Origin: Candidatus Methanomethylophilaceae archaeon
Lineage (GTDB): Archaea; Thermoplasmatota; Thermoplasmata; Methanomassiliicoccales; Methanomethylophilaceae
DNA: 49,672 nucleotides
Assembly (NCBI GenBank): GCA_017540825.1
Contig: JAFYAH010000020.1
Coordinates: 1 to 49,672 of the forward strand
Direction of reading: 5' to 3'
In this document: positions 33,469 to 44,135 of the stretch, in pieces
Layout: the number at the start of each line of letters is the position of its first letter
How positions within the stretch are numbered: the first letter of the stretch is position 1
Position numbers and translations under genes: made by a program
The notes under the pieces: model-generated
What the model saw: the letters and a program-made list of their open reading frames with translations, nothing else
The model's database searches: none
Told to the model about the DNA's origin: nothing

Positions 33469-34085
33469 GCATTGACGAGATATTCACGAGGACCAGCGTC
33501 AGGAGCTTCTCCGACAAGGTCCCGACCGACGAGGACATGGAGCTCCTGATGAAGGCGGCCATGGCTGCGCCCTCCGCGATGAACCAGCAGTGCTGGGAGT
33601 TCTGCATCGTGGACGACGAGGAGGTCATCGACAAGCTGTCTAAGGCGGCTCCCTACGCGTCGCCTGTGGGAAGAGCCCCCAGGGCCATAGTCGTCCTGGG
33701 GAACGTCGGTTTCATGAAGGCGGCCATGATGTGGCAGCAGGACCTCGCGGCGGCTACCCAGAACATCCTCCTGGCGGCGAAGTCCAAGGGCATCGGGACC
33801 GTCTGGATTGGCATAGCGCCGCACCCGGACAGGATGGAGGCCGTATCCGAGGCTATATGCCTGCCGGAGGACGTCAAGCCCTTCTGCCTCATCGCCGTGG
33901 GATATCCAGACAAGGAACCCGTTCCCAACGAAGGCAGATACAAGCCGGAGAGAGTGCACCGCAACAGGTACCGACCTCGCCGAAGCAAGAACGAGACCGA
34001 TACCAGGAGGGCGAGCATGGCGGCGTTGCAGAGAAGGAACACCGCCATGAACCTTCCGCTGTTATGCACCTCCCCCTTGGCGTAA
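33465..34085 (+). CDS. nitroreductase-family flavoprotein
   Basis: About 170 recognisable residues of an FMN-dependent nitroreductase: RTSVRSFSDKVPTDEDMELLMKAAMAAPSAMNQQCWEF holds the N-terminal FMN contacts, and GIGTVWIGIAPHPDRMEAVSEAICLPEDVKPFCLIAVGYPDKEP is the typical C-terminal half. Members reduce quinones, nitro compounds or act in cofactor metabolism. Coupled by ATGA to the methyltransferase-nuclease frame. The normal family end (RVHRNRY) comes at about 33971, yet no stop follows. The frame runs to 34085 opposite the end of the converging transporter, whose frame likewise fails to stop. Confidence 0.82.
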   Translation: MSIDEIFTRTSVRSFSDKVPTDEDMELLMKAAMAAPSAMNQQCWEFCIVDDEEVIDKLSKAAPYASPVGRAPRAIVVLGNVGFMKAAMMWQQDLAAATQNILLAAKSKGIGTVWIGIAPHPDRMEAVSEAICLPEDVKPFCLIAVGYPDKEPVPNEGRYKPERVHRNRYRPRRSKNETDTRRASMAALQRRNTAMNLPLLCTSPLA

Positions 34086-35095
34086 AGGCGGAACGTTATC
34101 AGGCTCGCCATCGAAGCTATAGGGGTCCCGAACCCGCCTATGTTCACCCCGGCCAGCAGGCTCTGCCAGTCCCCAGTGAATCCGGAAAGCATCACCGCCG
34201 CAGGGACGTTGCTGATGAACTGGCTTGCGAATACCGGGGTGAGCAGCGGCTGGCTGTCCATGAGGCCGCCGAGAACCGATGCGACCTCCTCCATCCTTGC
34301 TACGTTTCCTGTGAACACGAACAGGAACACGAACGTCAGCAGCAGGCTGTAGTCAACCTTCCCGAAGAGCGAAGGCTTCAGGAGGGCCATGGCGGCGGCT
34401 GTGCAGGCCAGCGCCAGCCAGAACGGCACCAGGCCGGCTACCGAGGCCACGCTGAGGACGAAAAGCAAGGCCATGGTGCCTAGCAGACGGCGATCCTCCA
34501 AAGTCGGCACCTCGGTCGATACGGCCTTGGAAGGCCCCTTGCATACGAATGCGCAGGCGATGAAGAGCACGGCGCCGCCTACGAGGGCGTAAGGCAGCAT
34601 CTCGAGGACGAAGTCGCCTATCCCGGGGCCGTACCTGGAGAAGATGAACAGGTTCTGCGGGTTCCCTATCGGGGTCAGGATGCTGCCTAGATTGGCCGCG
34701 GCCGTCTGCATTACGAGCGTAGGGATCACCAGGTCCTTCCTTCCCGCCCCTACCAGAGCGGCGACTGCCAGAGGGACGAACGTTATCAGCGCAACGTCGT
34801 TCGTGATCGCCATGGATGCGATGAACGGCAGGGCGACCAGCACGGAGCACAGGATGCGCGCCGAGGAGGCCTTGGAGACCATCCTCGCAGAGACATGCCT
34901 GAACAGGCCGCATTCCGACATCCCCGCTACCGTAGCCATGAGGCAGAAGAGGATGCACAACATGGGGACGTCGACGTACCCCAGATAGTCCTCCGACGGC
35001 GGCACGATGAAGGCCGAGATCAGGGCAAGGATGCCAGAGACGATCAGAGCGATCTCTGCTCTGATCCATGTCCCTAATCTTCCATGAGCCTCCAT
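33653..35095 (-). CDS. ArsB/NhaD/SLC13-type ion transporter
   Basis: About 370 recognisable residues with ten or eleven membrane segments, of the ion-transporter superfamily that includes ArsB, NhaD and citrate permeases. Signatures are MAITNDVALITFVPLAVAAL and NLGSILTPIGNPQNLFIFSRYG in the first half, and FVSQFISNVPAAVMLSG with GFGTPIASMASLITFRLY in the second. The ATG at 35095 has GGGGAG just before it and lies 23 bases after the nitrogenase-like component gene, so it is third in that operon. It may move oxyanions, carboxylates or Na+/H+. Membrane-protein sequence ends near 33985; the frame then stays open to 33653, antisense to the nitroreductase. Confidence 0.82.
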   Translation of the reverse strand: MEAHGRLGTWIRAEIALIVSGILALISAFIVPPSEDYLGYVDVPMLCILFCLMATVAGMSECGLFRHVSARMVSKASSARILCSVLVALPFIASMAITNDVALITFVPLAVAALVGAGRKDLVIPTLVMQTAAANLGSILTPIGNPQNLFIFSRYGPGIGDFVLEMLPYALVGGAVLFIACAFVCKGPSKAVSTEVPTLEDRRLLGTMALLFVLSVASVAGLVPFWLALACTAAAMALLKPSLFGKVDYSLLLTFVFLFVFTGNVARMEEVASVLGGLMDSQPLLTPVFASQFISNVPAAVMLSGFTGDWQSLLAGVNIGGFGTPIASMASLITFRLYAKGEVHNSGRFMAVFLLCNAAMLALLVSVSFLLRRGRYLLRCTLSGLYLPSLGTGSLSGYPTAMRQKGLTSSGRHIASDTASILSGCGAMPIQTVPMPLDFAARRMFWVAAARSCCHIMAAFMKPTFPRTTMALGALPTGDA

Positions 35096-35118: not shown

Positions 35119-36444
35119 TTATACGCTTTGGGTATCGCCTTCTCGTTTGCGGCAGCATCCCGGCCTGTACTCCACCTCGGTGGGCTGGCCGCATCTGAAC
35201 CTCGTCAGGCCGTTCATCATCTCGTCCAGGACGTACCTGCATCCGCGGAGCCCGACGAGCGTCCTCCCCATGAGGTCCATGAGCCTTCCATGGGGGATCC
35301 TCGTCTCCACGTACCCCGTGTCGTCGCAGGCTAGCCTCCCCTCGAGAGCCGTCAGGCCGTCGGAGAACACCAGCATGACCTCGCCCTCGGCGCCCTCCAA
35401 GGCGTCGGAGAAGCCCAGGGGGCCTAGATAGCGCCCAATCTCGGGAGAGTATTCGCCATCCGTAGGACGGACGTGCCTGGGGCGCATGCCGAACGTGTCG
35501 CACAGCCACTTCGTCAGAGGATAGACCACCGAGGAGTCCCCGTCGATCGTAAACCCTTTGCAGTGCAGCGACGCCGAAGCCCTGTCGCAGTTCATCAGCA
35601 CCTTGTGAACGGCCCTGGCGTCCTCGTCGATGATGGCCAGGGAAGGCGACGGGTCCAGGCCCAGCTCGGCCGCTACCTCCTTGACGAATGACCTCGTGGC
35701 CGGATATCCCACGGGCGCGCCCTCGGACGGCCTGAGGCTGGGGATGCCGAACCTCTCTTCCAGAGAGCGCACGGTGCGGCGGCAGTACTCCGGATGGACC
35801 ATCACGTTCAGAGCGGCCTTGCCGCAGCTCCGAAGAGACTCCTTCGAGGGCATGCAGCCGGCTACGCAGCCGACCTTGGCCCCCATAGGCTCCAGGATCC
35901 TGCGGAGCTCCTCGGCGCCGGCCTCCCATCCGAGGTCCATCAGCCCGTAACCGAACAGGTTCACGGCGCCGTCCTCGCCGGACTCCAGGTCGAGGGAGGA
36001 TAGTATCGCATCGGTCGCCGCGTCGAACCCTTCCGGGAGCGACATCGAGGACAGGTCGTCTTCCAGGGTTATCGGGCTCGTGTCGGAGCTCCCGGTTAGC
36101 CCCGTGTAGTCGGTGCAAAGCAGAGATGCCCCCAGCGTGTCGAGGAGGATGGCCCTCCTCCCGGTTATGGACGACACGGACTCCACCCCGCTGGAGACCT
36201 TCGCGGACGTGCCGAACACGATGTCGTCGTTGCCGAGGTAGGTGCAGGGGAGGCGGGACTGCCTGCTGAAGAACTTCGAACCGGTGCATCCCTGGTTCTC
36301 AGGCTCGTAGGCCGGGATCAGGTCATGCATCATGATCTGCGCCCTGGAGCGGCACCCTCCCGCGCCGTTGATCATCGTGTCCGTAAGCCCCAGGGACTCG
36401 GAGGCGATGATCGCCCCCAGCATGCCGTCGGGCTCGTTGTTCAA
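35119..36444 (-). CDS. nitrogenase component 1-like protein (NifK/E-type partner)
   Basis: A 441-residue member of the NifD/K/E/N superfamily, the probable partner of the NifH-NifD fusion encoded upstream. Cys31 (GAGGC) and Cys110 (TLGASLLC) match two of the usual cluster ligands of the K subunit. The first expected Cys, before LGA, is Asp or Gly here. Two extra cysteines (53, 67) lie in a region normally without ligands. Later parts show Rossmann-like units (GAKVGCVAGCMPSKESL; RVHK-type helices). I prefer the TTG at 36444: it follows GGAGGGAGG and overlaps the previous TGA (TTGA), whereas the ATG at 36459 precedes that ribosome site. Not a true nitrogenase subunit; no NifB, E or N genes are present. 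Confidence 0.82.
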   Translation of the reverse strand: MNNEPDGMLGAIIASESLGLTDTMINGAGGCRSRAQIMMHDLIPAYEPENQGCTGSKFFSRQSRLPCTYLGNDDIVFGTSAKVSSGVESVSSITGRRAILLDTLGASLLCTDYTGLTGSSDTSPITLEDDLSSMSLPEGFDAATDAILSSLDLESGEDGAVNLFGYGLMDLGWEAGAEELRRILEPMGAKVGCVAGCMPSKESLRSCGKAALNVMVHPEYCRRTVRSLEERFGIPSLRPSEGAPVGYPATRSFVKEVAAELGLDPSPSLAIIDEDARAVHKVLMNCDRASASLHCKGFTIDGDSSVVYPLTKWLCDTFGMRPRHVRPTDGEYSPEIGRYLGPLGFSDALEGAEGEVMLVFSDGLTALEGRLACDDTGYVETRIPHGRLMDLMGRTLVGLRGCRYVLDEMMNGLTRFRCGQPTEVEYRPGCCRKREGDTQSV

Positions 36445-38534
36445 AGGCCTCCCTCCCATGTGGGGATGGGAACGGAGAGGCTGTCAGCCAGGGTCCTCGC
36501 CCATTCCTCCACCCCTTCCATGCCGTAGTAGCGGGAACCCAGCGGGGCGTAGCGGAACCCTTCGCGCCTGACGCGGTCGGAGTCGTTGGTGAGGACGATC
36601 TCCGCCCCCTCCTCGGACATCAGCCTCCTGAGGTCGCACATCCTCATGCCGCTGAGGACCTTGACGTCCCCGTAGTCCGGGATGCGGACGTTGTGGTCTA
36701 TCACCGGCCCGTCCACGAACATCACCGCCCTTATGTCGGCGCCGAGGGCCTTGAGGGTCTCCACCTGCCATTTCAGGTCCCTGACCATGACGCAGTAGAC
36801 CACCACCCTCCTTCCTTCCAGGCGCGGCCTGTAGGCGTCGGCTATCCTTACGAAGCGCTCCCTGAGGGCCTTCTCCGCCGAAGGGGCCATGGCTGCGAAG
36901 GCTGGGTCGTACCCCGCCATGGACTCCACCCACTCCAGGCACCCGCTCAGCCCCACAGGGACGTCCATCTCCAGCGGCGCCCTCCTGCCCGTGGCCTCAG
37001 ATATCCTCTCGCCGATGCGGCGGTTCAGCTTCCCGCGGCCGATTATGAAGTCGTATTCCGCCGCGCAGAAGTCCTCGATCTCGGCCATCGTGCAGAAGTC
37101 CAGCAGGCAGAGCCTTATCCTGAGCCCGAACAGGGAGAGGAGGCCGCGCACCGAGGAGATGCTCCTGTCCCTGCCGAGGCCGTAGAACCATCTGGCGACC
37201 AGGTTGACGGTGCCTTTCTCGACCGGCCTCGGCCCCATCCTCGAGAAGAGGGCGTCGAACAGGCCGAACGCTCCTCCGAACTTGCTTGAAAGGAAAGCGG
37301 AGTCTGGAGCTACCGGGATCACCTCGACCCCGTGCCTGGATCCCAGGGCCTTCGCGTGCTCCGGCAGGTCCGCGCCCATTATCTCCGAAGAGCAGGTCGG
37401 CACCAGGAACATGTACCTGTAGCCGTCCATCTTCGCGCGGGAGACCGCGTCGTCAAGCAGCCTCCCGGAGTCCTTGAAGGCCTCGTCGGCGTCCAGGCAC
37501 GTGCTGTATATCCCGGCCTCCGGCGGATCGTCCGACCTCTCCGAGGATCCGTACAGCACCCTGCGCCTGAAGGCGAACTCCATGAGGTAGGCGCAGTTCC
37601 TCGGGCCGTGGAGTATCACAGCCGCGTCCCTGATCCTCATCGCGCCATCGGCCGCCCCATGGGAGGTGCATGCCGGCATGACGAACTCCCCCACATAGGT
37701 GAGGTTGCGCTCGGCATCGTATCCCTCGAAGCTGCATCCTGCGCTCTTCCTGCTGCTAGGGCCGTGCGTTATCGGCCTCCCTGCGGCGAGATCGCCCATC
37801 GCCTCGTCAGAAAGCGGCTTCGGGACGTGGCACTCCGGCCGCTCCCGCACGAGCGATGCCAGCTTCCGTAAAGCTTCGGCTTCCGCCGAGTCGGGGAACA
37901 ACTCGCAGAGCACCTCCCCTTCTGATTCGGCCTCCTTGAACAGGGCTGAGCGCGGAAGGTCGCATACTATCGGCAGACCGGTCGCCTCGGCGAACCTGCG
38001 GACGGGCTCGTCCTCCCCCTCCTCCCCTCTCCGGTTGAGGACCAGCCCCATAACCGTCTTCCCCGGGTTTATGTTCCTGAGCCCCTTGAGTATGTTGTTT
38101 GCAGCGAAGAGCGACATGAACTCCCCCGAAGTGACGATCAGGACCGAGTCGCAGTTTGCCCTCCTCGCAGGTATCGAGAACCCTCCGCACACCACGTCGC
38201 CCAGGACGTCGCTGACCCTGTAGTCCGCATCCACATCGGATATCCTGGAGAAGAGGAGCTCCATCCCCTTGCCGGCGCATCCTCTTCCCGGCTCCGCCCC
38301 TCCGCACTCGACGCACATCACCCCGTTCAGCCCCTCGTGCACCGGGTCCGACGACGTGTCGGAAGAGAACGTCCTGACGCTCCGGCCGTGGGAGAGGAGC
38401 CTGGTGGAATCGTGCTTCGGATCGCAGCCCACATGAAGGACGGCGCTACCGTCCAGAGACAACAGATATGACACGTTGGCGGAGACGGTGGACTTCCCGA
38501 CCCCTCCTTTTCCGTACACTGCGAGCCGATACAT
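36441..38534 (-). CDS. NifH-NifD-like fusion, nitrogenase-superfamily reductase
   Basis: A 697-residue fusion. Residues 1-235 are an iron protein: P-loop GKGGVGKST (8-16), the two [4Fe-4S] cysteines Cys86 (GRGCAGKG) and Cys116 (LGDVVCGGF), and the switch regions. Residues about 260-697 are a NifD/component 1-like domain with Cys289 (MPACTSHGA), Cys314 (GPRNC) and Cys381 (PTCSSEIMGADL) at the P-cluster-type positions. Such pairs reduce difficult substrates using ATP (N2, protochlorophyllide, Ni-sirohydrochlorin diamide, methylthio-alkanes). Fusion of H to D in one chain is unusual because the H protein normally docks and leaves each cycle. TATA at 38554-38563 implies a leaderless transcript. 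Followed by the K-like gene and a transporter; divergent from an iron/corrinoid importer. Confidence 0.88.
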   Translation of the reverse strand: MYRLAVYGKGGVGKSTVSANVSYLLSLDGSAVLHVGCDPKHDSTRLLSHGRSVRTFSSDTSSDPVHEGLNGVMCVECGGAEPGRGCAGKGMELLFSRISDVDADYRVSDVLGDVVCGGFSIPARRANCDSVLIVTSGEFMSLFAANNILKGLRNINPGKTVMGLVLNRRGEEGEDEPVRRFAEATGLPIVCDLPRSALFKEAESEGEVLCELFPDSAEAEALRKLASLVRERPECHVPKPLSDEAMGDLAAGRPITHGPSSRKSAGCSFEGYDAERNLTYVGEFVMPACTSHGAADGAMRIRDAAVILHGPRNCAYLMEFAFRRRVLYGSSERSDDPPEAGIYSTCLDADEAFKDSGRLLDDAVSRAKMDGYRYMFLVPTCSSEIMGADLPEHAKALGSRHGVEVIPVAPDSAFLSSKFGGAFGLFDALFSRMGPRPVEKGTVNLVARWFYGLGRDRSISSVRGLLSLFGLRIRLCLLDFCTMAEIEDFCAAEYDFIIGRGKLNRRIGERISEATGRRAPLEMDVPVGLSGCLEWVESMAGYDPAFAAMAPSAEKALRERFVRIADAYRPRLEGRRVVVYCVMVRDLKWQVETLKALGADIRAVMFVDGPVIDHNVRIPDYGDVKVLSGMRMCDLRRLMSEEGAEIVLTNDSDRVRREGFRYAPLGSRYYGMEGVEEWARTLADSLSVPIPTWEGGL

Positions 38535-38833: not shown

Positions 38834-40207
38834 ATGAACAATAAGACCATGATCGCGATAGTTGCCGTAGTGGCTGTGATAGCCATCGCAGCGGCGGCTT
38901 TCGTGCTGCTGAACAACAACGGCTCCGACAACGGCTCCGAAGTCAAGGACAAGACGGTGACGGTGACCGACGCCGCCGGAAGGACGGTTACCATCTCCGG
39001 CGACGTGGAGCGCGTGGCGTGCTACGGCGTAGGGTGCCTCAGGCTCTTCTGCTACGGCAGCGACGTGAAGAAGATCGTCGGCGTAGAGAAAGCGGAGATC
39101 AACGGATTCAACGGGGACGAGTCCCGCGGATACTGGCTGGCCAACAAGGACTACTTCATGTCCCTCAAGACGGACATAGGGCAGGGCGGCCCCCAGGGGA
39201 TGCCCGACAAGGAGAAGCTCCTCCTGGCAGACCTCGACCTCCTGTTCATCACCAACAGCATGGAGCCCTCGGAGATAGACGAGCTCTCCAAGGGGATCGG
39301 ATGCCCTGTCGTCCTCCTGTCGGGCGTGGACTATGCACCTTTCGGAGAGGCTTTCTACGACAGCATCAAGCTTGTAGGGAAGGCTGCAGGAACCGAGAAA
39401 AAGGCCGACGACACTGTTTCGTACCTCAAGTCCGTATACGACGACCTCAAGAAGCGCTCCAGCGACGGCGGCGTCACCGCTTACATCTGCGGCCTTTCCT
39501 ACAGAGGCAACAACGGCATCGACACTACCATCAAGTCCTATCCGATCTTCGATGCCCTGAACATCACCAACGCCTATGCCAAGTACGTGGAGGAGACCGG
39601 GGCCAAAGCCACCGGGCATGCCGACAAGATCAGCACCGAGGCCCTCACCATAATGGACCCGGAGAACATAGTCGTCGACTACAACGGATACAAGGCGGTC
39701 GTCCTCCCTGATGTGGCCAAGGGGAACAAGTTCTACGACGGCCTCTCGGCGTTCAAGAACGGCAACGTTCTCATCACCATCCCGAGCATCGCATATGCGG
39801 CCAACGCCGAGCACCTCATCGCGACGGCCTACTACCTCGGGAGCGCCTATTATCCCGAGAAGTTCGCCGACGTCTCCGTCGAGGCTAAATTCACAGAGGT
39901 ATGCCAGAAGATCCTCGGCAACGGATCGATAGCGAAGAAGATACTGGACGCCTATTCCGACGGGCTCTGCGTTTGGAACACCCAGACCGACAAGGTGTCC
40001 GTGGCGAGCGGCTCCTCTGTGACCTTCACCGATCCCGCCATCGCCGACGGCTCTGAAGTGCTCAGAGGCACCGTCGTGTCCTTCAAGACCAGCAGCGCCG
40101 GACAGACGGTGAAGGCGACGATGAACGGCGCGGACACGGTGCTGACCGCAAAGAACGGCGTATACTCCTTCAAGATAGTCGGAGACGCCGTCATCAGCAC
40201 CAGCTGA
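38834..40207 (+). CDS. ABC importer substrate-binding protein (iron/cobalamin type)
   Basis: A 457-residue extracellular binding protein. A single N-terminal membrane segment (IAIVAVVAVIAIAAAAFVLL) anchors it; there is no lipoprotein Cys. Then come the type III binding-protein fold (VTVTDAAGRTVTISGDVERVACYGVGCLRLFCYG at the front; DLLFITNSMEPSEIDEL; VVDYNGYKAVVLPDVAKGNKFYDGLSAFKNGNVLIT) and an extra beta-rich C-terminal domain of about 70 residues. It captures the ligand for the permease and ATPase encoded after the methyltransferase. The chemistry of this class covers ferric siderophores, heme and corrinoids; which one cannot be told. First gene of a four-gene operon divergent from the nitrogenase-like genes. 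Confidence 0.9.
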   Translation: MNNKTMIAIVAVVAVIAIAAAAFVLLNNNGSDNGSEVKDKTVTVTDAAGRTVTISGDVERVACYGVGCLRLFCYGSDVKKIVGVEKAEINGFNGDESRGYWLANKDYFMSLKTDIGQGGPQGMPDKEKLLLADLDLLFITNSMEPSEIDELSKGIGCPVVLLSGVDYAPFGEAFYDSIKLVGKAAGTEKKADDTVSYLKSVYDDLKKRSSDGGVTAYICGLSYRGNNGIDTTIKSYPIFDALNITNAYAKYVEETGAKATGHADKISTEALTIMDPENIVVDYNGYKAVVLPDVAKGNKFYDGLSAFKNGNVLITIPSIAYAANAEHLIATAYYLGSAYYPEKFADVSVEAKFTEVCQKILGNGSIAKKILDAYSDGLCVWNTQTDKVSVASGSSVTFTDPAIADGSEVLRGTVVSFKTSSAGQTVKATMNGADTVLTAKNGVYSFKIVGDAVISTS

Positions 40208-40215
40208 GTGATGCC

Positions 40216-41040
40216 ATGTCCCGGCTGTCCGACGCTGTAGAAACCAAGTGGTCCCCGATGAGAGGGCCTGGCTGCGATCCCAGGATGTGGGACAAAGGCT
40301 CCGCGAGATTCGCCGAACATCCGATCCCGGAAACCGGCACGGACGATTTCCTGAGGCTCGTCTCGAAGACCGTCCGTTTCAAAGGGGACGAGTCCGTGCT
40401 GGACGTGGGCTGCGGCGCCGGACAGTACAGCATCGCGCTCTCGCATCTGGCGGGCAAGGTCCTGGGCACCGATTTCTCGGAATCGATGGTGGCCCACGCC
40501 AGGATGCTGGCCGAGCGCGAGGGCGCAGTCAACGCGTCTTTCGCTAAATCCGACTGGAGGACGCAAGACGTCTCCATGTCGGATTACGCCAACGGATTCG
40601 ACGTGACGATAGCGCATTGCACCCCGGCTATAGATTCCGCCGATTCGTTCAGGAAGCTCGTGTCGATTACCCGCGGCTGGGGGTTCGCCACGTTCTGCAC
40701 CCGCAGGGTGGACGTCATCGACAGGCATCTCGGGGATTTCATCGGAAAGGAGTTCAGGAACGCGCACGGGGCCGACCTTCCGGCCTATGCGTTCCAAGTG
40801 CTCTGGGACATGGGGATGTACCCCCTGATGCATTACGAGCGCGATGTCGTAACGACAGGCAGAATGCCCTCCGCCGAAGCCTTGGACCGCGTCAGAGGCA
40901 TGCTAGCCAGATCGGGAGAGGACGATCCTGACGCGCTGGCTAGGAGGTTCGTCGACTCCGTATCCGAGAACGGCGAGGTCGATTCCGGCTTCAGGTCGGA
41001 TTTCACCACCGTCTACTGGGACTCGAGGTCCAAGGCATGA
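40216..41040 (+). CDS. SAM-dependent methyltransferase inside the importer operon
   Basis: A 274-residue class I methyltransferase: VLDVGCGAGQYSIALSHLAGKVLGTDFSESMVAHAR near 60-95, then FDVTIAHCTPAIDSADSFRKLVSITRGWGFATFCTRR. The AHCTPA and TRR elements are like those of methyltransferases found beside iron/cobalamin-type importers in methanogens. It lies between the binding-protein gene (8 bases before) and the permease gene (ATGA overlap at 41037-41040), so its product must be made together with the importer. It may methylate the imported ligand or a chelator; substrate unknown. Confidence 0.85.
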   Translation: MSRLSDAVETKWSPMRGPGCDPRMWDKGSARFAEHPIPETGTDDFLRLVSKTVRFKGDESVLDVGCGAGQYSIALSHLAGKVLGTDFSESMVAHARMLAEREGAVNASFAKSDWRTQDVSMSDYANGFDVTIAHCTPAIDSADSFRKLVSITRGWGFATFCTRRVDVIDRHLGDFIGKEFRNAHGADLPAYAFQVLWDMGMYPLMHYERDVVTTGRMPSAEALDRVRGMLARSGEDDPDALARRFVDSVSENGEVDSGFRSDFTTVYWDSRSKA

Positions 41041-42113
41041 AGCGCGACGACGAGGGCATAGCGCAGTACGAGGCCCATGTCGGGCGCAAGCGCCTGGCAA
41101 TAGTCTTGCTGCTGGTCCTCGTCGCCCTTCTGAGCATCGCGGAGATATTCGTAGGGTCGGTGAGCCTCACAGCGGACCAGGTCATCTCCGCGATCATGCA
41201 CCGCGGGGACGACCCGTTCTCCCGCATAATATGGGAGCAGCGCATGCCCAGGGTGGCCACCGCCATGGTCGCGGGCGCCGGGCTTTCGATGGCGGGATGC
41301 GTGATGCAGAACAATCTCAAGAACCCGTTGGCATCGCCTTCCACGCTCGGAGTCACCAATGCCGCCGTGTTCGGAGCCAACTTCGGCATCATAATCCTGG
41401 GGGCCGGCGCGGCGACCGGGGCCTACGCCTCCACGGTGACCAACCCGTACATCGTCACCCTGCTGGCGTTCGCGTTCTCCATGCTGACGGTGTTCCTGAT
41501 AGTCCTGCTCTCGAAAAGGACCAACTTCTCGCCGCCGTCCATAGTCCTCGCCGGGGTCGCCGTAGGCTCGATATTCACCGCTGGCACGACCATCCTGCAG
41601 TACTTCGCCAACGACACGGCGCTGGGGACCGCGGTATTCTGGTCCTTCGGCGACCTGTCCAGAGTATCCGTCAACGAGCTGACGATCATCACGGTCGTCA
41701 CCGCCGCCTGCGCCGTCTACTTCTACCTGATGAGATGGAACTACAACGCCCTGGCGAACGGGGACGAGCTTGCTAGGAGCCTCGGGGTGGACACCAGCAA
41801 GCTGATAGCCCTCGGGATGGTCTTGGCGTCACTGATAACAGCTGTGGACGTCTCGTTCATGGGAATGATAGGGTTCGTCGGACTGATTGGCCCCCAGATG
41901 ATGCGGCTGGTGGTCGGCGAAGACCATCGCTACCTCATACCGGCCTCCATGCTGGCAGGCTCCGCGGTCATGATGGCTTCGGATCTTGCCGCAAACATAG
42001 CTCTTTCGCCGATAGTGATCCCCGTAGGCGCGGTCACCTCCCTTCTGGGAGGCCCGCTGTTCCTGTGGCTGCTGCTCAGAAGAAGGGGAGGTGCCAGGGA
42101 ATGTCGATACTGA
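41037..42113 (+). CDS. FecCD-family ABC importer permease
   Basis: A 358-residue permease of the BtuC/FecCD family with about ten membrane segments. Landmarks: RMPRVATAMVAGAGLSMAGCVMQNNLKNPLASPSTLGVTNAA, LANGDELARSLGVDTSK (coupling helix), GMIGFVGLIGPQMMRLVVGEDHRYLIPASML and IVIPVGAVTSLLGGPLFLWLLL. The start overlaps the methyltransferase stop, and the end overlaps the ATPase start by 13 bases, giving one tightly coupled operon. It is a paralogue of the permease at 616-1767. Confidence 0.93.
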   Translation: MKRDDEGIAQYEAHVGRKRLAIVLLLVLVALLSIAEIFVGSVSLTADQVISAIMHRGDDPFSRIIWEQRMPRVATAMVAGAGLSMAGCVMQNNLKNPLASPSTLGVTNAAVFGANFGIIILGAGAATGAYASTVTNPYIVTLLAFAFSMLTVFLIVLLSKRTNFSPPSIVLAGVAVGSIFTAGTTILQYFANDTALGTAVFWSFGDLSRVSVNELTIITVVTAACAVYFYLMRWNYNALANGDELARSLGVDTSKLIALGMVLASLITAVDVSFMGMIGFVGLIGPQMMRLVVGEDHRYLIPASMLAGSAVMMASDLAANIALSPIVIPVGAVTSLLGGPLFLWLLLRRRGGARECRY

Positions 42114-42856
42114 CCGTCAACGGGCTGAGCTTCAGCTATCCCTCCCTTGACGTGATAAAGGACGTGTCCTTCGAGGTCATGCCGGGGGAGGTCGTCTCCA
42201 TTCTGGGGATGAACGGCGCAGGGAAGTCCACGCTCCTCAAGTGCATCAACAGGATCCTCAAGATGTCCTCCGGCAGCGTCGCTGTCTCGGGCTGCGACAT
42301 CTCGAGCCTCTCCTCCAGGGAGCTGGCGCAGAAGATGAGCTTCGTCATCCAGGGAAGCAGGTTCTCCTCCACTTCCGTCTTCGACGCCATCCTGCTCGGC
42401 AGGAAGCCGTACATCGAATGGGACGCGACGAAGAAGGACTTCGAGATCGTCAAGGACTCCATCTGCAGGCTGGGCCTGGAAGACTACGCCCTGAGGAACG
42501 TAACGGAGATGTCCGGCGGGGAATCCCAGAAGGTCGCTCTAGCCAGGACAATAGTGCAGCAGACGGACGTGATGCTTCTGGACGAGCCGACTTCCGCGCT
42601 TGACTTGAAGAACCAGCTGGAAGTCATGAACATCGTCCGCGAAGAGGTCAGGAGGCGCAACGTCGCAGCGGTGGTGACGATGCACGACCTCAATCTTGCC
42701 CTTCGCTTCTCGGACAAGTTCCTGATGGTCAAGGACCGCAGGATCTACTCTATGGGCGGGATCGAGACGATCACTGCCGGCGCCATCAAAGACGTCTACG
42801 GGGTGGACGCGGAGATCGCCGAGGTGGGCGGCCATAAAGTGGTCGTCCCCCTGTAA
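42101..42856 (+). CDS. FecE/BtuD-type ABC importer ATPase
   Basis: A 251-residue ATPase of the importer: Walker A GMNGAGKST at 36-44, signature MSGGESQKV near 137, Walker B VMLLDEPTSALD near 158, switch histidine in TMHDLN near 192. The ATG at 42101 is chosen because GGGGAGG lies a short distance upstream and homology begins there; the frame itself is open earlier. Last gene of the importer operon. The TAA stop is one of only three in the window. Confidence 0.94.
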   Translation: MSILTVNGLSFSYPSLDVIKDVSFEVMPGEVVSILGMNGAGKSTLLKCINRILKMSSGSVAVSGCDISSLSSRELAQKMSFVIQGSRFSSTSVFDAILLGRKPYIEWDATKKDFEIVKDSICRLGLEDYALRNVTEMSGGESQKVALARTIVQQTDVMLLDEPTSALDLKNQLEVMNIVREEVRRRNVAAVVTMHDLNLALRFSDKFLMVKDRRIYSMGGIETITAGAIKDVYGVDAEIAEVGGHKVVVPL

Positions 42857-42953: not shown

Positions 42954-42990
42954 ACTATAGTGATAACATACTTCATGTCACTATAGTGAT
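42954..42990. repeat. direct repeat of ACTATAGTGAT
   Basis: The 11-mer ACTATAGTGAT occurs at 42954-42964 and again at 42980-42990, 26 bases apart. Each contains a palindromic core (ACTATAGT, and CACTATAGTG in the second). The second copy overlaps the last codons of the PemK-like gene. The arrangement suggests a tandem binding site for a dimeric regulator, but no promoter is clearly attached to it. Confidence 0.5.
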
Positions 42991-43365
42991 GATATGGCGT
43001 CGGTAGGCCTTCCTCTTGTACGCCTTGGTGAGCTTGTGCTCCTCGAATATCCCGGAGACCATCCCTGCGTCGTCCTCGACTAGGTCCCCGAGCTTGTAGT
43101 TGAACTTGTCCTCCGGTATCCTGAACAGCCTGTCGGTGCGCACTGAGGACGACATGTCCAGCATCACCTCGTACGGGTCGTGGAGCTTGACATGGTTCTC
43201 CGGCTCCCGCGTGCTGGTAGTCACCATCAGGACCGTGAACTCGTCGTCCCTCTTCTCCAGGACGATCACAGGGCGGTTCTTGGCCCCGGACATGTTGTCG
43301 AAGTACAGCCTGGCGTTCCACACCTCGAACGGCCTCGGATGCGGCTGCTCGGCGCGATACCTCAT
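42973..43365 (-). CDS. PemK/MazF-like protein
   Basis: A 130-residue protein with the beta-barrel pattern of PemK/MazF toxins: RPFEVWNARLYFDNMSGAKNRPVIVLEKRDDEFTVLMVTTSTRE, then MSSSVRTDRLFRIPEDKFNYKLGDLVEDDAGMVSGIF. The GAKNRPVIVL strand and VRTDRLFRI match positions that bind RNA in the family. No antitoxin gene of the usual kind lies next to it, and it is coupled to the chelatase-like gene by an ATGA overlap (43362-43365). A stand-alone or re-purposed member is therefore likely; endoribonuclease activity is unproven. Confidence 0.72.
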   Translation of the reverse strand: MRYRAEQPHPRPFEVWNARLYFDNMSGAKNRPVIVLEKRDDEFTVLMVTTSTREPENHVKLHDPYEVMLDMSSSVRTDRLFRIPEDKFNYKLGDLVEDDAGMVSGIFEEHKLTKAYKRKAYRRHIITIVT

Positions 43366-44135
43366 CGCTCCCTCTTCAGGACGGCCGCGGCGTCGGCATG
43401 GTCCGCATAGAGCCTCTGGAAGGTCGGGCGCGCCCCGAGCCCTTTCGTGAAGCATACGACCTTGAAGCCTTCCGACTTCAGGGTCATCCTCAGGGACACC
43501 TCCTCGTCCCCGACGATCTCCTCGGAGTCCTCCTCGCTGATGTCCACGATGAACGGCACCACCGAAGCCGAGGTCGCCCCCATGCGGCGGAGCTTCTTGC
43601 AGGTGTCCGCGAACGAAGGGAAGCCCTCGACGGTCGTGACGGCGAACATGGCGTCGTCGGACAGGTTCAGCATCTCCTGCAGCTGGCAGTAAGAGGCGTT
43701 GGCGTAATGGTCGGTCCCGCGCCCGACGAGGACTATGGCGGTGCCTTCCCCCACATGCTCCAGAACGTCGGGCACTATGTCCTTGGCCACGGCGGAGCAG
43801 GCAGAGCGGTAGTCCCTCTCAGATGTCAGCAGCGGGGTCCCGAGGCGGACCTCCGCGAAAAGATCCAGGTTCCTCCTTACCTCGTCCGCGACTATCTCGT
43901 ACTCCGGGCCGTTTATTACGTCCAGCGTCTGGACGGTGAGGTGCGTGACGCCTTCTTCCGCCATCTTGGAGAATACGGTCGATATGTGCTCGACCTTGGC
44001 TTTCTTGGCCTCGATGCGGCTGGTGAACGCTCTGAAAACGCGGCTGCCCTCGTGCCTCTCCGCGATAGCCCCTTCCACAGCCTCGGATGCCGTCCCGTAG
44101 CTCACCAACAAGTACGCCCTGCTGACCTCGTCCAT
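43362..44135 (-). CDS. CbiK-type chelatase homologue lacking catalytic histidines
   Basis: A 257-residue protein aligning along its length with anaerobic sirohydrochlorin cobaltochelatase CbiK: LLVSYGTAS at the start, FRAFTSRI near 35, VQTLDVINGPEYE near 70, TPLLTSERDY near 100, and KGLGARP at the end. The residue equal to CbiK His145 (GHG) is Arg139 (VGRGTDH), and that equal to His207 (AGDH) is Glu202 (ISEED). The glutamate equal to Glu175 is kept (Glu170 in TVEGFP). Metal insertion by the known mechanism is thus doubtful; it may bind a tetrapyrrole or metal as a carrier or sensor. Leaderless promoter at 44156-44165. Confidence 0.82.
   Translation of the reverse strand: MDEVSRAYLLVSYGTASEAVEGAIAERHEGSRVFRAFTSRIEAKKAKVEHISTVFSKMAEEGVTHLTVQTLDVINGPEYEIVADEVRRNLDLFAEVRLGTPLLTSERDYRSACSAVAKDIVPDVLEHVGEGTAIVLVGRGTDHYANASYCQLQEMLNLSDDAMFAVTTVEGFPSFADTCKKLRRMGATSASVVPFIVDISEEDSEEIVGDEEVSLRMTLKSEGFKVVCFTKGLGARPTFQRLYADHADAAAVLKRER

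Follow-up and report, generated by a model that had tools for sequence, protein, structure and literature searches.

A CbiK-family protein lacking both catalytic histidines is conserved beside a nitrogenase-like gene pair in three archaeal genomes

What is a chelatase fold kept for once its metal ligands have been replaced? This question is raised by a 49,672-nucleotide stretch of DNA from a Methanomethylophilaceae archaeon, hereafter the window, in which the initial annotation described a CbiK-type chelatase that had lost both catalytic histidines. The gene, here called CbiK', encodes 257 aa from its ATG, and its strand (minus) is now added to that description (Table 1). A Pfam search placed it above the gathering cut-off of PF06180 (CbiK; 26.2 bits) along its full length, with 140.5 bits (E 7.9e-41) over residues 9-250, which bears out the reported alignment throughout; by homology, CbiK' is thus a CbiK-family protein. 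Its nearest relatives of solved structure are Salmonella CbiK (1qgo/2xwp, phmmer E 2e-21), P. gingivalis FetB (9b86, E 3e-19) and the periplasmic CbiK-P of D. vulgaris (2xvx, E 5e-14). An AF2 model built from three sequences reached a pLDDT of 67, which rose to 85.8 (pTM 0.82) when two viral-contig CbiKs were added to give five input sequences. Foldseek aligned this model to both CbiK 1qgo and FetB 9b86 with a TM of 0.84, indicating a two-lobed class II chelatase fold; loop 201-208, which contains Glu202, was modelled with a pLDDT below 50. Compared with canonical enzymes of the family, the N-lobe has about 8 residues fewer after SYGT and about 6 fewer after TSRI. The protein is probably cytoplasmic.

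Residue equivalences were established with a MAFFT alignment numbered on 1qgo, and every residue named in the initial annotation proved correct. His145 is replaced by Arg139 and His207 by Glu202, each in 3/3 orthologues, and the Glu175 equivalent is kept as Glu170. Both histidines are kept in all the canonical CbiKs aligned from the family. Judged by its sequence, CbiK' therefore lacks the two histidines that define a sirohydrochlorin cobaltochelatase. Its score on the NCBIfam equivalog NF047852 (117.4 bits, cut-off 400) does not discriminate, because the canonical CbiK of the same genome also falls below the cut-off (250.8). By alignment, no other conserved histidine appears to take over in the active site: His143 (CbiK position 149) is kept but is no replacement ligand, since almost all canonical enzymes carry it beside both catalytic histidines, and alignment inspection alone indicates that the N-lobe histidine of the CbiX-L/SirB type is absent. 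The SYGT and QTLDVING stretches of CbiK' hold Tyr13 and Asp72, position 72 being His in one orthologue (G061). Set against Salmonella CbiK (1QGO/2XWP), CbiK' thus shares the family, the fold, the full-length alignment and the Glu175 equivalent, and differs in its Arg/Glu pair, the two shortened N-lobe segments and its nitrogenase-like linkage.

The two substitutions do not weigh equally. In ferrochelatase HemH the first position is still a His (His183, with Glu264 at the second), so that its His and Glu pair in the C-terminal lobe is matched in CbiK' by Glu202 but not by Arg139. HemH/CpfC has the class II chelatase fold and is only distantly similar to CbiK' in sequence (about 13% identical over the structural match), and Glu replaces one of its two histidines, at the second position (PMC7689651, PMC4063343). 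In Paracoccus CbiX, either H127A or H187A, at the matching His positions, abolishes in vivo activity (PMC4063343). Glu at the His207 position is therefore not inactivating in principle. Arg139 is the strongest sign against ordinary chelation, because the first His is the one that HemH retains and its change to Ala kills CbiX. The loop around Glu202 is expected to be mobile, since the beta carbon of His207 in CbiK shifts by 5.5 Å upon ligand binding (PMC4063343).

These comparisons bear on whether CbiK' could still be an enzyme, namely a carboxylate-based chelatase or de-chelatase that would use Glu170, Glu202 and the acidic loop EEDSEE (residues 201-206) to strip the metal from an imported tetrapyrrole or to insert another. 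Such an activity would fit the retained Glu170, the richness of the loop in invariant acids and the Glu of HemH. It would also fit the CbiK homologue IhtB/FetB, for which removal of heme iron has been proposed and Mn insertion into PPIX reported (PMC10913741, PMC13402209). FetB is, like CbiK', a CbiK relative outside B12 synthesis, and it handles heme with a FecBCD-type importer (PMC10913741), but it is a surface lipoprotein with both histidines present. Given also the Arg at the first position, we consider a remodelled chelatase unlikely, though worth weighing, and the earlier suggestion of a chelatase for another metal is accordingly disfavoured.

The altered active site is not peculiar to one assembly. 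Within 102 genomes of the family, which include the source genome (G000), CbiK' occurs in three, the orthologues being found in G057 (SIG7, SUSZ01; 78% identity) and in G061 (Tb.RUG.172, JAEEJP01; 69%), the latter labelled Methanomassiliicoccaceae. No further orthologue was found among 400 sampled genomes of the class, and searches of GTDB contigs returned relatives only in the same two MAGs. We read the CbiK'-bearing genomes as rumen-type methanogens from the MAG names and because the window carries a gene for methanogenesis marker 8. The search for the same substitutions in relatives, proposed at the outset, was successful: R139, E170 and E201-E206 are identical across the three separate MAGs, and are therefore due neither to chance nor to assembly error. 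CbiK' is under strong purifying selection, with pairwise dN/dS values of 0.13-0.23 among the three genomes; the corresponding ranges in the same genomes are 0.12-0.14 (canonical CbiK) and 0.11-0.18 (the nitrogenase-like NflHD), all of them rough because dS is high. In the CbiK tree, the CbiK' clade has a long stem (1.57) and short tips, which suggests one burst of fast change followed by constraint; its sister is the intact CbiK of G064, with both histidines (UFBoot 95, SH-aLRT 85). Assembly error or random decay is rejected on the strength of the three genomes together with the dN/dS values. A functionless, decaying duplicate might be suspected from the loss of both catalytic residues and the narrow spread, but the reading frames are intact, synteny is conserved and the remodelled loop does not vary among the three genomes; with the low dN/dS besides, we regard such a duplicate as highly improbable.

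The initial annotation had set CbiK' beside an importer and a nitrogenase-like operon, and only the second of these neighbours withstood comparison. CbiK' and the NflHD-NflK pair share one locus in 3/3 genomes, in the order CbiK'-PemK-NflHD-NflK-CitMHS on one strand in G057 and CbiK'-NflHD-NflK-CitMHS in G061, NflHD being 80% and 71% identical, respectively, to that of the window. In the source genome, an opposite-strand SBP-methyltransferase-FecCD-ABC cassette lies between PemK and NflHD and separates CbiK' from NflHD. This importer was not found at the CbiK' locus in G057 or G061, and the conserved neighbour of CbiK' is therefore the nitrogenase-like pair. The CitMHS-type ORF downstream of NflK is kept in G057 and G061, and also adjoins NflK in G062. 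The PemK/MazF-like ORF, which shares 4 bases (ATGA) with the stop of CbiK', is 91% identical in G057, above the identity of its neighbours, and is missing from G061.

Table 1 Features of the CbiK' locus (positions in the window)
Feature	Position	Strand	Basis
CitMHS-type transporter ORF, C-terminal end provisional	33653..35095	-	PF03600 53.6 bits on part 33653-34807; start by comparison
NflK, NifK/BchB-like subunit	35119..36459	-	PF00148 91 bits, synteny
NflHD, fused NifH-like reductase and NifD-like subunit, 697 aa	36441..38534	-	PF00142 211 bits, PF00148 129 bits
Importer substrate-binding protein (SBP)	38834..40207	+	PF01497 49 bits
Class I SAM methyltransferase inside importer cassette	40216..41040	+	PF13847 53 bits
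Importer FecCD/BtuC-type permease	41037..42113	+	PF01032 284 bits
Importer ABC ATPase, start set at ATG 42101	42101..42856	+	PF00005 106 bits
PemK/MazF-like ORF	42973..43365	-	PF02452 24.5 bits, cut-off 23.1
CbiK' (CbiK family, both catalytic His replaced)	43362..44135	-	PF06180, CbiK/FetB/CbiK-P alignment, AF2 model
Glu202 codon GAG (CbiK His207 position; invariant EEDSEE loop 201-206)	43530-43532	-	Alignment
Glu170 codon GAG (CbiK Glu175 equivalent)	43626-43628	-	Alignment
Arg139 codon CGC (CbiK His145 position)	43719-43721	-	Alignment; invariant in three orthologues

A small single-domain protein adjoining an operon, with its fold kept and its catalytic residues lost, might act as a ligand or metal sensor or as a regulatory subunit for the Nfl operon or the importer, and a sensor was indeed among the roles first put forward. 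However, CbiK is the sole Pfam domain in this plain 257-aa chelatase fold, with no DNA-binding or signalling domain, and an Rfam search of the window returned no regulatory RNA. Nothing specific speaks for a sensor, which we judge very unlikely.

Linkage between CbiK and Nfl genes extends beyond the three orthologues. In G064, NflHD and the intact sister CbiK are arranged divergently, the two matches lying 385 bp apart. The NflHD of G064 is not the closest relative of that in the window, so that the association may either be ancient and have been lost in places or have arisen more than once. The nearest NflHD relatives (61-65%) occur in four genomes, where the surroundings examined contained no CbiK, indicating that the reductase does not always need CbiK.

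The source genome contains three CbiK genes, whose three active-site states match three genomic contexts: a canonical copy (contig C9, 283 bits), CbiK' and a third, CbiK3 (contig C11), which keeps both catalytic histidines and has Thr or Ser for Glu175. With a canonical copy in the same genome, CbiK' is unlikely to replace the ordinary CbiK function. CbiK3 closes a run of genes, ABC-FecCD-FecCD-SBP-CbiK3 (L040:9214-14283, G000:C11), and FecCD-SBP-CbiK3 occurs again in G061 and G068 (L134, L138). Standing at the end of an importer operon, CbiK3 is a better parallel to FetB/IhtB than CbiK' is, and the gene run resembles the Iht system of P. gingivalis. Elsewhere in this genome, two tandem CbiX domains lie in one 370-aa open frame (G000:C10:10983-11711; L071, L072), possibly a fused CfbA/CbiX chelatase.

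The partner proteins retain the features of a nitrogenase-like reductase. NflHD keeps the P-loop GKGGVGKS and the NifH/D cysteines C86, C116, C289, C314 and C381, all invariant in 35 paralogues save C289 (34/35), and NflK keeps C36 and C72. The fusion as such is already known, a fused nifH/nifE gene of the same order having been mentioned earlier (PMC4153887). The pair was rejected as the CfbCD of F430 synthesis, the NifH part scoring 229.6 bits on the CfbC equivalog model against a cut-off of 402. NflHD relatives are expanded in the family, with up to 11 matches per genome, and often lie near FecCD, SBP, ABC and SAM-methyltransferase genes. FecCD permeases are themselves expanded in the family's host-associated methanogens, with at least 19 per genome. 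SAM methyltransferases that end in an ArsR-type HTH domain recur beside Nfl pairs (L089:5134-6264, L091:9945-11129, L088:14026-15120 and L093:6494-7549; the HTH was detected by Pfam in three and by similarity in L089) and may be regulators in which the methyltransferase part serves as the sensor. An in-frame TAG, probably pyrrolysine, was observed in the methanogenesis marker 8 gene of G057 (L034:6548-7387) and in several NflHD genes; in the rumen isolate ISO4-H5, amber codons are reported in mmp8 and in a predicted nitrogenase gene (PMC5011839).

Another tetrapyrrole chelatase family also accompanies these genes. A CobN-type class I chelatase directly precedes NflHD-NflK in G011:C1 (124 bp) and G068:C11 (95 bp), with a similar arrangement in G068:C84 (703 bp), and CobN, NflK, NflHD, ChlD-like and ChlI-like genes lie together in G000:C36. 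Loci with CobN beside NflHD-NflK are L148, L149, L150 and L083. Among the matches listed, 16/138 NflHD have CobN within 10 kb, where a crude uniform model predicts about 5.8 (an excess of about 2.8-fold), a proximity that is suggestive, not strong. In G071, CbiJ/TP-methylase and CbiA-type genes are found some 3 kb away from an Nfl pair. Searches of the open-access literature yielded no account that connects CobN or CbiK with Nfl genes in these archaea. CobN/HmuS are, like the CbiK family, tetrapyrrole chelatases, HmuS removing heme iron in Bacteroidota (PMC12583661), but are class I proteins of unrelated fold and much larger.

These neighbourhoods leave room for a system in which the nitrogenase-like proteins and CbiK' act on a non-tetrapyrrole, perhaps a sulfur compound or metallophore, with CbiK' binding that ligand. 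The related group IV nitrogenase-like enzymes Mar and Isr cleave C-S bonds of sulfur compounds (PMC11423573), and the FecCD-type importers and SAM methyltransferases carried by many Nfl loci of the family are compatible with metallophores. On the other hand, all the fold-matched chelatases have tetrapyrroles as substrates, and the CobN, ChlI/ChlD-like and CbiJ/CbiA-type genes near Nfl genes point the same way; we find a non-tetrapyrrole ligand improbable.

Taken together, these data lead us to favour, tentatively and at a little under an even chance, the view that CbiK' is a class II chelatase fold that does not metallate and has been retained to bind a tetrapyrrole in partnership with the nitrogenase-like reductase. 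The histidine loss, the fixed Arg/Glu and EEDSEE, purifying selection and the shared NflHD-NflK locus all argue for it, as do the canonical CbiK elsewhere in the genome, the nfl-adjacent sister CbiK of G064, the fold match, the CobN genes adjoining NflHD-NflK elsewhere, the kept Fe-S cysteines and the inactivation of CbiX by His-to-Ala changes. It also draws on the reduction of tetrapyrroles by nitrogenase-like enzymes in F430 and (bacterio)chlorophyll synthesis (PMC7242693). In F430 synthesis, a class II chelatase (CfbA) and a nitrogenase-like reductase (CfbCD) serve one tetrapyrrole route (PMC7242693), although CfbA is a small His-rich homodimer and CfbCD has no NifK partner. The C-S cleaving relatives, the closest NflHD without CbiK, the modest CobN excess, the low-confidence loop and the intervening importer count against a tetrapyrrole partner. 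Of the carrier idea first proposed, the part that stands is a plausible tetrapyrrole-handling role other than chelation, suggested by a fold without metal-handling histidines next to a nitrogenase-like pair.

In such a partner, Arg139 would pair with Glu170 and/or Glu202 and fill the former metal site, so that a tetrapyrrole, whether metal-free or already carrying a metal, may sit in the cleft without being metallated there. CbiK' would then pass or present the ring to NflDK for reduction, the electrons coming from the NifH domain; CfbCD, DPOR and COR reduce their substrates in this manner.

A conserved class II chelatase without metal ligands would offer a clean natural test of what this fold can do beyond metal insertion, and CbiK' gives a clue to what a large, uncharacterised nitrogenase-like family in rumen methanogens acts on. 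The CobN/Nfl adjacency is likewise a lead on the function of archaeal CobN/HmuS homologues, posed as a question in PMC12583661. More broadly, and as a possibility that we hold to be rather doubtful, histidine-less CbiK and CobN-type proteins may be ring-binding partners of expanded nitrogenase-like reductases that, with heme/B12-type importers, would carry out an undescribed anaerobic uptake and reductive remodelling of foreign tetrapyrroles in gut methanogens, CbiK' being the non-metallating class II version.
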